NCBI GenBank assembly: GCA_023395555.1
Contig: JAEWYQ010000086.1
Span: 1 to 64,000, forward strand
Direction: 5' to 3'
DNA: 64,000 bases
Source of the DNA: Bacillota bacterium
GTDB lineage: Bacteria > Bacillota > Clostridia > Lachnospirales > Lachnospiraceae
This document shows positions 7,755 to 28,262 of this stretch, piece after piece (within the stretch, counting starts at the first letter, position 1; the number at the start of each line of letters is the position of its first letter). The position numbers and the translations under genes are program-made. Under the pieces are notes generated by a model that worked only from the letters and a program-made list of their open reading frames with translations, made no database searches and was not told the origin of the DNA.

Positions 7755-8711
7755 TTAAGGTTTCAACAGATAATTCCCCCCTTTTCTTATGGATTCTAAC
7801 TCATTTTTACTAAAAGTTCCTGCTTTATATAAATTCAAATATTCTTGTGAAACAGAAGCATTAAAGATACACAAATCATCTGTATTTATTGTTACCTTGA
7901 TGCCTGCTTCAAACAGTTTGCGAATTTGATGTTTTTTATAACTTTCACTTCTTTGAAGCATAATGTTACTGGTTGGGCAAACGTGGCAAATGATCTTATT
8001 AACTGATAAAAATCTTAAGAGAGAGGGATCTTCTACTGCATTTATTCCATGATGTATTTCGTTTAATTCCAGCTGTTCAACACATTCACGGATATGTCCG
8101 GCATTACCAAATTCGCCCGCATGTGCACGAAGTAAAAGGCGATGTTTTTTTGCAATTCTGTACATAGGTATGATATCTTCTATTTTTCTTGAATTTTCAT
8201 CTCCCTGCCAATCGACAGATTTAAAGTAGTTATAATCCAGGATATGCTCCAGCCTTTCACAATCTTGATTAATATCGCCATGCCTGAACAACACTAATTC
8301 CGGGAAAAAGTGTGTATCCGGTATGAGCTTTTGATAATCATTCATTATATGGATAAAACAATCCATTCCACCAACTTGTTCTATCTCATCTAATCCATAG
8401 CTCATGGATAAGACTTTTATAGCATCATTTTTTGCTTGGATAAACGATGCCTTGACTCTTTCTAAATACCCATTCAATCCTGTGTAATATTTCTTAATAT
8501 TATTTTCAAACCAACACTGCATTTCTTGCAAAGAATGGAAAGGAGTAGAATTCGGTATTATTGAAATCCCTTTATTAGAGGCCAGATAATCTTGACTTCC
8601 GCCTCTGCCCACATGATTATGTAAATCACTTTTTGGTACTTTACGCATCAATGATAGAGAATTACTATCAAGTGCCTCAAAAAATAGTTCTTTATCGTTT
8701 GATTTATCCAT
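7755..8711 (-). CDS. Adenosine deaminase family protein
   Basis: A 318-residue amidohydrolase-fold enzyme that would deaminate adenosine or a related aminopurine to inosine (cytosolic, purine salvage). Metal and catalytic motifs appear in the family order: DLHNHVGRG near residue 30, HAGEFGN (about 200) with catalytic Glu, HGINAVED (about 225), and TINTDDL (about 285) with the metal Asp. The length is slightly short of the usual 330-350 residues. A start at 8711 follows GAGAGG. No purine riboswitch was recognisable upstream. Relatives include adenine deaminase and AMP-deaminase-like proteins, so the exact substrate is open. It stands alone between an intergenic gap and a decayed gene remnant. 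Confidence 0.9.
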   Translation of the reverse strand: MDKSNDKELFFEALDSNSLSLMRKVPKSDLHNHVGRGGSQDYLASNKGISIIPNSTPFHSLQEMQCWFENNIKKYYTGLNGYLERVKASFIQAKNDAIKVLSMSYGLDEIEQVGGMDCFIHIMNDYQKLIPDTHFFPELVLFRHGDINQDCERLEHILDYNYFKSVDWQGDENSRKIEDIIPMYRIAKKHRLLLRAHAGEFGNAGHIRECVEQLELNEIHHGINAVEDPSLLRFLSVNKIICHVCPTSNIMLQRSESYKKHQIRKLFEAGIKVTINTDDLCIFNASVSQEYLNLYKAGTFSKNELESIRKGGNYLLKP

Positions 8712-26256: not shown

Positions 26257-26868
26257 CTAATAGATTACTGAGGGATCAAGAATTAATTCGCGAGTAACAT
26301 AATATGCAATACCAGTGATTGTTGTGATACCACAAACGCCTAATAGCGAAGGTTGATGATCCATCTCAACACCATTTTCCTTGTAATATATAACTTTGGA
26401 AGGATAAGTTTTATAGAATCCATAATCCAGATTCTTTTCGACTTCACTAATTGCTTCATTACCGATAGTATAAAAATATCCACTCGTCCAATAACTTTTT
26501 CCTACAATCGATGGTTCAATTAACAAATTATCATAATCCGGTTTATAATTTTCCAAAGTAGCTTCTTTACTTTTACACTTAAAAATGAAAATAAGATTTT
26601 GCCCATTAATGAAGGAATCTCCTCCTATGTGCCGGATATTTGTTTTCATAACTTTTCCATAGAAATATATACCATCCTGAGGGCTGAGGACAAATATATC
26701 TCCATCCGTTAGCGCGGTTCTTTTTCTCTTTATAACCTTAAGTTGGTATTCGTTTGGATGCATATTATTTAATTTATCCAACCTATCCCTAACGTCTTTA
26801 GGCTGTGCATTATACAGTTCCTCCCACTTTTTATGCATTGGATCATTATTTACATACTTTGAATTCAT
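26257..26868 (-). CDS. Imm26-like immunity protein
   Basis: A 203-residue protein. From about residue 45 it has the pattern of the Imm26 family: a basic RKRTAL lead, GDIFVLSPQDGIYFYGKVM, a middle strand LIFIFKCKS, then WTSGYFYTIGN. Imm26 proteins neutralise polymorphic contact-dependent or type VII toxins. No toxin gene is adjacent, so here it would be an orphan immunity gene protecting against neighbours (inference). The start at 26868 follows AAAGGA; start sites 6 to 24 bases upstream are possible. Family recognition is by motif only. Confidence 0.6.
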   Translation of the reverse strand: MNSKYVNNDPMHKKWEELYNAQPKDVRDRLDKLNNMHPNEYQLKVIKRKRTALTDGDIFVLSPQDGIYFYGKVMKTNIRHIGGDSFINGQNLIFIFKCKSKEATLENYKPDYDNLLIEPSIVGKSYWTSGYFYTIGNEAISEVEKNLDYGFYKTYPSKVIYYKENGVEMDHQPSLLGVCGITTITGIAYYVTRELILDPSVIY

Positions 26869-27196
26869 ACACATCATCCTTTCTGTTTTCATAATAAATT
26901 AGCAATAAAAGAAGTGTAGAAGTAACATAAAGTAATGGTGCCTTCTTGAAATTCTCACAGTATAAGTGGATTCCGGTAAAGCTCAGAATCCACTTATGCC
27001 TGGAATATTACTGATTAATAAACCATGTTGCCCATTGCATGGCATCCTCTAAGGAAATTACAATACATAATTTTGTCCCTTTCTACAGCTTTAGAAAGCT
27101 AAGCCCTAATTCAATGATATCATAATAAAGAGAATAAAGAAACGGTTTTAATTGCGGGGACTCCGGTTTATTAGCTTGATTGCTTCCTGGCGGCAA
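26869..27196. other. Gap with an interrupted minus-strand reading frame
   Basis: No intact gene. The minus strand reads, from about 27170 to the stop at 27008, a frame broken by one internal TAG. Its pieces, FLYSLYYDIIELGLSFLKL and CIVISLEDAMQWATWFINQ, look protein-like. It may be the decayed end of a gene lying after the AraC gene; the family is not recognised. Confidence 0.3.
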
Positions 27197-28120
27197 TCAA
27201 AGATCATCCGTACTTTTCACATCGACTTTAAGGTTATCAGTGCCTCTGAGTTTTTGGTTTACCCAATTATTCAGAAGCTCCGGGGAAAAATTTTCATTTT
27301 GAAATATCAATGTATCTGGTTTCAAAATTATCTCCGTACCCGAAGAAGCTTCTAGATTGCTAATATAAAGTTCATGCTGGGCAATGCCCCGAATAAAGTC
27401 TTGCTGAAAGAGTTTTCCATCCCTTTTTACAATGATTTGCAAGGCTTCGCATAATGAATTAACGGTCTGTAAGTCTGCCTGCATAAGATCGCCCATTTGG
27501 CTGTATTCTGCATTCGTTATTGGTCTTCCGGCTAATATTTTATCCAGTACGGCTTTACCTGCATGTAAATCTTCAGACAGGGGTAATCCCCTTCCGTTAT
27601 CACGGATTTTTATTCTACCCTCTGATAAAAGCGTAATTTCTATGTTAGTACAGAAGCCAGCCTTGGCCTCTTCAAAGGATTGTTCAAGAAATTCGAAAAC
27701 AAGCTGGTGCATATTGTGTTGTAATGAACTTATTACTTCCATATTTGACCTCCTGTTAATAGTTTCTGGTACAACATACATAGGAACCGTATATGAAGTG
27801 AGATGCTTCCTAACAGTGCTTGGTGTTGAACCAAAGAGTTGGGTAAAGGCACGTGTAAACCCTTCGTGGGAGTCAAATGCATACAAAATTGCAACATCGA
27901 GAACCTTTCGCCCTTCCAGCAAGGAAACGACCGCATATTGTAATTTGCGAATCCGAACATAGCCCGTAACTGGCATTCCCATTGCGTCAGAAAACAGTTT
28001 ACTGAAATAGAAGGGACTATAGCCTGCTAGTTCGGCTAAAACACATAAACTTATTTTTTCATAAATATGTTCCTCGATATAAGCTAATACGTTTTCCAAC
28101 ATACCGCTGTTCATATACAT
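27197..28120 (-). CDS. AraC regulator fused to degenerate GyrB-like ATPase
   Basis: A 307-residue protein. Residues 7-107 are an N-terminal AraC/XylS double helix-turn-helix (LAELAGYSPFYFSKLFSD; ILYAFDSHEGFTRAF), arranged as in Rob or SoxS. Residues about 127-300 follow the N-terminal ATPase of DNA gyrase B: HQLVFEFLEQSFEEAKAGFC, IRDNGRGLP, IIVKRDGKL, and GTEIIL. Compared with E. coli GyrB from memory, E143 matches E42, D174 D73, R177 R76, P180 P79, R233 R136 and T262 T165. N46 is replaced by Q147 and the lid motif GLHGVG is lost (DLMQAD). It may bind ATP or a gyrase inhibitor without hydrolysis. The start has AGGAGG upstream. Confidence 0.85.
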   Translation of the reverse strand: MYMNSGMLENVLAYIEEHIYEKISLCVLAELAGYSPFYFSKLFSDAMGMPVTGYVRIRKLQYAVVSLLEGRKVLDVAILYAFDSHEGFTRAFTQLFGSTPSTVRKHLTSYTVPMYVVPETINRRSNMEVISSLQHNMHQLVFEFLEQSFEEAKAGFCTNIEITLLSEGRIKIRDNGRGLPLSEDLHAGKAVLDKILAGRPITNAEYSQMGDLMQADLQTVNSLCEALQIIVKRDGKLFQQDFIRGIAQHELYISNLEASSGTEIILKPDTLIFQNENFSPELLNNWVNQKLRGTDNLKVDVKSTDDL

Positions 28121-28234
28121 TTACCTCCTGATAGTATCAAGCTGCTGCCGGCAACATAATTATTATATCAATTATTTCAGCAGTATTCTTGACTTTATAT
28201 ATTATAAGTTTATATGAGTGCATGTATCAGTGCA

Positions 28235-28262
28235 ACAAAAAACCCCCTTGTAAATCAAGGGG
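28235..28262 (-). terminator. Rho-independent terminator for the GNAT remnant
   Basis: On the minus strand CCCCTTG-ATTTA-CAAGGGG is followed by GTTTTTTG, a clean intrinsic terminator between the GNAT remnant and the AraC-GyrB gene. Confidence 0.8.

Follow-up and report, generated by a model that had tools for sequence, protein, structure and literature searches.

Within a 64,000-nucleotide stretch of the Bacillota (Lachnospiraceae) contig JAEWYQ010000086.1, hereafter the window, one gene encodes an AraC-type double helix-turn-helix (HTH) fused to a degenerate counterpart of the ATPase domain of gyrase B. We propose, with somewhat better than even confidence, that this gene is an autogenous ligand sensor with two products, similar in logic to tipA and assembled from AraC and pseudo-GyrB parts. 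Four features of the sequence support the proposal: the fusion itself, the pattern of residues retained in its pocket, a conserved Shine-Dalgarno (SD) sequence and start inside the gene, and a conserved promoter element. The original prediction, made from the window alone, pictured a plain one-component regulator; the fusion is real, but the internal start and the promoter element were overlooked there.

The open reading frame (ORF) had been placed correctly at 27197..28120, with its strand left unnamed; translation assigns it to the minus strand, read from 28120 to 27197. M3 at 28114, which gives a protein of 305 residues, is a likelier start than M1, because M3 is 94% and M1 6% conserved in 119 aligned sequences and because AGGAGG lies 9 nucleotides ahead of M3 and only 3 ahead of M1. 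The N-terminal half carries both motifs of the AraC type, as had been recognised (Pfam HTH_18 at residues 28–105, E = 3e-16; HTH_AraC, E = 5e-10), and its best solved relatives in a search of the PDB are Rob, RamA and SoxS. One search gave no HTH match among the 50 matches listed, a single domain filling the list. The profile check proposed for the C-terminal half likewise agrees with the GyrB assignment: the NCBIfam GyrB model PRK05644 matches residues 119–289 (E = 2e-29, 102 bits), far under its full-length cut-off of 740, as expected because only a single domain is present, and phmmer against the PDB finds Pseudomonas aeruginosa GyrB (E = 2e-21). Pfam HATPase_c matches weakly (E = 3.5e-4; score 21.4 bits, cut-off 26.4). 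This half has the GHKL ATPase fold of the GyrB 24-kDa type, and it stands where a GyrI-like effector of the Rob subtype would be, which is not present. The protein stops at residue 307, near GyrB position 211, with the transducer, TOPRIM and C-terminal topoisomerase parts absent; Pfam reports only the AraC HTH and the weak HATPase_c, and neither a MerR HTH nor a TipAS domain. A first structure model, from 45 close alignment rows, was poor in the HTH and was superseded by a second from 58 rows, which is good (predicted local distance difference test 91–98 in the HTH block) and whose GyrB-like part was helped by GyrB rows in its alignment.

Judged from its homologues, the AraC-GyrB fusion is a conserved family, neither a lone oddity nor a product of chance. 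The search suggested for the same fusion in other Clostridia returned 481 matches at E ≤ 1e-3, counting that of the window itself; the best 120 all contain the AraC domain, with lengths close to 300 residues in nearly every case. In a tree, the fusions form one clade (support 1.0), whose placement closer to GyrB than ParE is weakly supported. A GyrB of its own and a ParE-like match are also present in each of the seven carriers tested.

The pocket of the GyrB-like domain appears to have been altered on one side. Residue correspondences were read off a joint alignment with Escherichia coli GyrB, and they bear out the six predicted contacts (E42 is E143, D73 is D174, R76 is R177, P79 is P180, R136 is R233 and T165 is T262) as well as the replacement of N46 by Q147 and of the lid GLHGVG (G114–G119) by DLMQAD (D211–D216). 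The window protein further carries P200 for K103 and Q139 for H38. Among 41 fusion loci, retention is complete at D73, G75, R76, G77, E50 and G164, high at Y109 (98%), R136 (95%) and T165 (80%), and lower at P79 (54%). K103 is kept in 0/41, with Pro in 93%; D45, D49, G114 and H116 are never kept, G117 and V118 are nearly gone and G119 remains in 29%, while lid-side G113 and L115 persist in 80% and 73%. These loci retain N46 in 56% and E42 in 46% of cases; the corresponding figures in 117 closer relatives (the P sequences) are 22% and 97%, with G119 at 86%. A summary was drawn from those positions whose conservation reaches 95% or more across 37 sequences labelled GyrB. Mean retention, with the 41 loci given first and the closer relatives second, is 0.85 and 0.82 for the adenine/aminocoumarin side (10 positions), 0.24 and 0.34 for the Mg/phosphate/lid side (18), and 0.60 and 0.52 for the rest (18). 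For the 41 loci, Mann-Whitney tests of the three side contrasts give p = 1.6e-4, 0.025 and 0.0035, the sides having been assigned from established contacts and the positions not being independent.

These patterns suggest a degraded pocket that is probably non-hydrolysing, in keeping with one part of the original prediction of a ligand-binding sensor of ATP or gyrase-directed antibiotics. Against a full loss of catalysis stands the general base E42, which is retained in the window and in nearly all close relatives, although in under half of the 41 loci. Because the adenine/aminocoumarin side is mostly kept and the phosphate/Mg/lid side mostly lost, an adenine-like or GyrB-site ligand appears likelier than ATP itself, the less favoured part of that prediction; the pocket may no longer handle a triphosphate and may still accept such a ligand.

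The linker between the two domains appears to hide a second translation start. With the GyrB-like domain alone as query, many stand-alone proteins of about 180 residues appear among the best 120 of 124 matches, and 28 of the 36 with 165–192 residues start near the family's Met127, in the zone of the internal start. The linker DNA was therefore inspected for a start. In the window, N122-R123-R124-S125-N126-M127 is coded aac AGG AGG tca aat ATG, which places a full SD 6 nucleotides ahead of an in-frame ATG and suggests that the gyrase-like domain of 181 residues could be freed. The stand-alone proteins themselves were not counted as proof of a short product, most being on short contigs; the one case whose DNA was inspected, L125, has no HTH and no clear SD by eye.

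Met127 is 96% conserved amid an otherwise variable linker, and where the residues differ the DNA signal persists, as in AAGGAGGgccatATG (L004), GAGGAGGttgaaaaaATG (L037), GGAGGaaaccattATG (L017) and GGAGGaagaaaaaATG (many Treponema). Statistics on this signal were taken first on 66 ORF records with 23 representatives; a recount reduced these to 45 distinct genes with 22 representatives, L043 and L115 now counting as one gene. A duplex energy of −6 kcal/mol or lower is reached in 42/45 genes and 19/22 representatives, compared with 14/437 and 11/209 other in-frame ATG or GTG codons, a comparison that pits the best of a few candidates against single codons. Windows of equal length, which overlap, were therefore compared too, and they reach −8 or lower in 15/22 against 20/915 and −6 or lower in 19/22 against 58/915. 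Synonymous recoding with the family's codon usage gives a combined p of 1e-7, with single-gene p < 0.05 in 6 of the 22 related genes (8e-7 and 7/23 in the first run, on 23 representatives). Internal and main starts have the same mean SD energy (n = 21). Moreover, an in-frame start comes after the strongest linker SD in 21/23 representatives (20/22 distinct); for SD-like sites in other parts of the genes the figure is 15/122, and this coupling disfavours a mere pause site.

The element TCAAGAA lies exactly 18 nucleotides before a −10-like hexamer in 21/22 clostridial and 30/32 Treponema records, and a relaxed form does so in 22/22 and 32/32, some Treponema records repeating a gene; base-shuffled DNA would give 0.02–0.20 per set. 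Representatives with at least 150 nucleotides of upstream DNA have the strict form in 20/21 and the relaxed form in 21/21. The element would occupy the place of a class-II activator, instead of a −35. For a genome-wide scan, a stricter pattern was used with the reversed pattern as control. Across 17 clostridial genomes it gave 22 matches (13/17 genomes matched; control, 3 matches), 12 of them at the fusion gene. Nine of the ten others fall inside open frames of at least 100 residues on either strand, a mild test, as 4/12 self sites do so too. Of the 24 matches across 13 Treponema genomes (control, 0), 15 are at the fusion gene, 4 of them assigned by reading the DNA and 11 by site letters identical with the upstream set; one of the 4, in L224, precedes an HTH start only, at a contig end. 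Seven of the nine other Treponema matches lie inside open frames of at least 120 residues, and that in L218 has no gene after it. At the strict consensus, then, the gene's main target as predicted from these scans is its own promoter, and convincing recurrence elsewhere in carrier genomes is rare. Three matches look possible as further targets but are single or ambiguous cases, named by reading translations: 41 nucleotides before another AraC-HTH gene in an Anaerocolumna-group genome (L211), 26 nucleotides before a deaminase-like gene in a Treponema genome (L213), and, inside an open frame and overlapping a reverse frame, 65 nucleotides before a lipoprotein-like gene (L206). A wider regulon was considered and set aside, the other strict matches being mostly inside open frames.

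As the main target of the element appears to be its own promoter, the output of the regulator is to be sought in the gene's own products, and the internal start would provide such an output, the sensing domain made on its own. We propose that the full-length protein binds TCAAGAA just upstream of its own −10 and that a ligand in the GyrB-like pocket would make it switch its own promoter. On the same mRNA, the second ribosome-binding site in the linker would give the pseudo-GyrB domain alone, which could bind the same ligand as a buffer or sponge, or could tune the full-length protein by pairing with it. This short protein is probably itself the useful output. It is the match to tipA logic that leads us to favour an autogenous two-product ligand sensor; the making of both proteins, the binding of TCAAGAA by the fusion protein, the ligand and the sponge role we infer from sequence patterns. 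That the ligand might be a gyrase-B-directed antibiotic is the boldest step, drawn from the pocket pattern, and adenosine-like metabolites are equally open.

The strongest alternative, which we regard as a minority possibility, is a plain one-component AraC regulator whose pseudo-GyrB domain senses ATP, ADP or another nucleotide and whose internal SD is a relic or a pause site at the domain border that yields no protein. The domain architecture fits it, as do the retained D73, G77 and Y109 on the adenine side and the E42 of the close relatives, and folding could benefit from an SD placed where two domains meet. However, the linker SD is tied to an in-frame start, is kept across changed residues and exceeds what synonymous recoding gives, and the loss of K103 and most of the glycine lid, with Gln at N46 here, disfavours triphosphate binding. 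Somewhat less probable still is a short isoform that acts as a dosage partner, pairing through its GHKL domain to damp the full-length protein as a structural pseudo-enzyme with no ligand. Degraded catalytic and lid residues, the internal start and the autoregulatory element would all suit such a partner; yet the six invariant residues of the 41 loci fit a pocket in use (as they would a fold core), and the N-terminal arm through which GyrB dimerises has no aligned counterpart. That the gene is a decaying join of gyrB remnants and an AraC gene, as broken copies (L011 frameshifted, L047 degenerate, L125 without the HTH) and patchy occurrence might indicate, is very improbable, being contradicted by the shared architecture of the best 120 of 481 matches, the invariant residues, and the conserved promoter and internal start.

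Several observations weigh against the two-product sensor that we favour. With P79 and T165 variable (P79 is Lys in Treponema) and another residue in place of E42 in roughly half of the 41 loci, a different ligand, or none, may be involved. The internal SD is weak in L005, L013 and L108; the best site in L015 is a GTG and probably not a homologous start, and in L013 the in-frame start behind the strongest linker SD is a different Met. The choice of the best of several candidates, the overlapping windows and the kinship of the genes weaken the p-values. The strict promoter pattern misses the gene's own site in 5/17 clostridial genomes, and weaker targets would therefore be missed too. No conserved neighbour points to a drug among 53 loci plus the window, or among 30 neighbours scanned with Pfam, and the carriers' habitats, which are often gut, are not known as aminocoumarin sources. 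Finally, AraC-GyrI genes share the junction SD without any gyrase part, so a short product need not concern gyrase.

This last observation may be a wider finding. In AraC-GyrI genes of Lachnospiraceae and Treponema, a junction SD with a start reaches −6 kcal/mol or lower in 27/33 records and −8 or lower in 20/33, against 38/274 and 10/274 for other starts; the counts take the best of the candidates, include some near-identical records, ignore kinship, and have a few best sites off the domain border. The genes concerned are L160–L188, L011:11437–12279, L022, L035 and L046, with the site near the border of the GyrI-like domain. The pattern suggests that AraC-GyrI effector domains are made separately. 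E. coli rob, the one outside control, has no such SD (−3.7), and upstream of AraC-GyrI genes the strict TCAAGAA element occurs in 0/31 and the relaxed form in 1/31. Two earlier surveys by regular expression were replaced by this homology-based count: one with 9 records (7 at −8 or lower; background 0/67), and one with 5 among 30 loci (2 at −8 or lower and 3 at −6 or lower; background 6% and 18% of 33).

Table 1. Features of the fusion gene and its upstream region in the window
Feature	Position	Strand	Remark
AraC-GyrB-like fusion gene	27197..28120	minus	ORF 307 residues, likely start M3
AraC/Rob-type double HTH, residues 5-106	27803..28108	minus	Pfam, profile and PDB matches; modelled
GyrB-like GHKL pseudo-ATPase domain, residues 129-307	27200..27736	minus	aligns with E. 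coli GyrB 28-211
Internal SD AGGAGG (R123-R124 codons)	27749..27754	minus	
Predicted second product, GyrB-like domain alone, 181 residues	27197..27742	minus	in-frame internal ORF, ATG 27742 (Met127)
Predicted self-operator TATAAAGTCAAGAA	28186..28199	minus	ends exactly 18 nucleotides before −10; TCAAGAA core 28192-28186
Predicted −10 TATAAT	28162..28167	minus	
SD AGGAGG of main start	28124..28129	minus	
Terminator-like hairpin, T tract after, upstream of promoter	28243..28262	minus	consensus match only

The hairpin upstream of the promoter is consistent with the fusion gene being a separate transcription unit; three such hairpins were found in the region against 1.3 expected in shuffles, by consensus match only. 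The next same-strand gene downstream (26257–26892, minus), about 300 nucleotides off, encodes an Imm26-family immunity protein. By their record titles, carriers are Lachnospiraceae and other Clostridia, as well as Treponema and further spirochaetes, with animal guts the source of many; the window's nearest named relatives are in Anaerocolumna. With centre genomes counted in, the fusion occurs in 1/391 genomes of the class among the matches listed, where fusions would rank at the top, in 5/397 of the family at E ≤ 1e-44, in 18/245 of the Treponema family and in 2/15 of the genus Anaerocolumna, one of the two without the HTH. BLAST with the C-terminal domain over 53 genome-contig loci gave 46 ORFs in 44 loci plus the window, L011 being split in two; the loci came from a scan with HTH-derived patterns, which could therefore not find the domain without an HTH. 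The comparison of gene neighbours that had been proposed found no recurrent partner beside the fusion: when ORFs of the 53 loci and the window were clustered, the largest shared cluster beyond the AraC cluster (52 sources) comprised ABC ATPases from 11 sources. Pfam on 30 chosen neighbours returned ABC proteins (beside L010, L012, L017, L036 and L037), GNAT, Mrr and others, with no pattern seen and no enrichment test run. In a phage collection, none of 116 records covered 80% of the query; in a plasmid collection, 10 of 1462 did so, all AraC-type alignments at 23–25% identity from Rahnella, and the rest of the 20 rows listed are GyrB/ParE halves or partial AraC alignments. Aberrant copies include L011:8001–8895 (Anaerocolumna AGMB13025), split in two frames or frameshifted; L047 at about 8001–8400, degenerate; L125, a GyrB-like part without the HTH; L044:8004–8768, with an apparent internal in-frame deletion; and P0003, a 463-residue relative on a 2443-base contig in which the fusion is partly repeated, which may be an assembly artefact. 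Searches of open-access literature listed no title that deals with a fusion of AraC and GyrB or with an internal start in an AraC gene, though subscription journals could contain one.

Taken further, and only tentatively, the gene could be a gyrase-mimic drug-response module, in which an AraC regulator would sense gyrase-B-directed natural products through a pseudo-GyrB pocket tuned away from ATP, activate chiefly its own promoter and flood the cell with a free-standing GyrB decoy, translated from the internal start, that soaks up the compound; more widely, clostridial AraC-effector regulators may regularly possess effector-freeing internal starts. The favoured two-product sensor would be a second case of tipA logic, arrived at independently by joining an AraC switch to a copy of a drug target that the cell itself possesses. 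The conserved putative operator, internal start and degraded pocket make each step directly testable, and the AraC-GyrI signature gives a hint of separately made effector domains in other regulators too, products that gene callers and proteomics could overlook.

Compared with the GyrB/ParE N-terminal ATPase domain (GHKL), the fusion domain has lost K103, G114, H116, D45 and D49 in the 41 loci and nearly lost G117 and V118, has a variable N46 that is Gln in the window, and is without an aligned N-terminal arm, transducer, TOPRIM or tail. With Rob and the AraC-GyrI proteins it shares an N-terminal AraC HTH followed by a C-terminal effector and, in clostridial and Treponema members, a junction SD and start; their effector domain is unrelated, E. 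coli rob is without the SD, and TCAAGAA is practically absent upstream of them. The closest likeness in logic is to TipAL/TipAS of Streptomyces lividans, of the MerR family, where, as described in PMC7762955, two start codons of one autogenous gene give TipAL, an HTH with its effector, and the predominant TipAS, the effector alone, which sequesters thiopeptides. There the parts are MerR and TipAS domains, whereas here an unrelated AraC HTH and a pseudo-GyrB domain would serve, with two products predicted from sequence.
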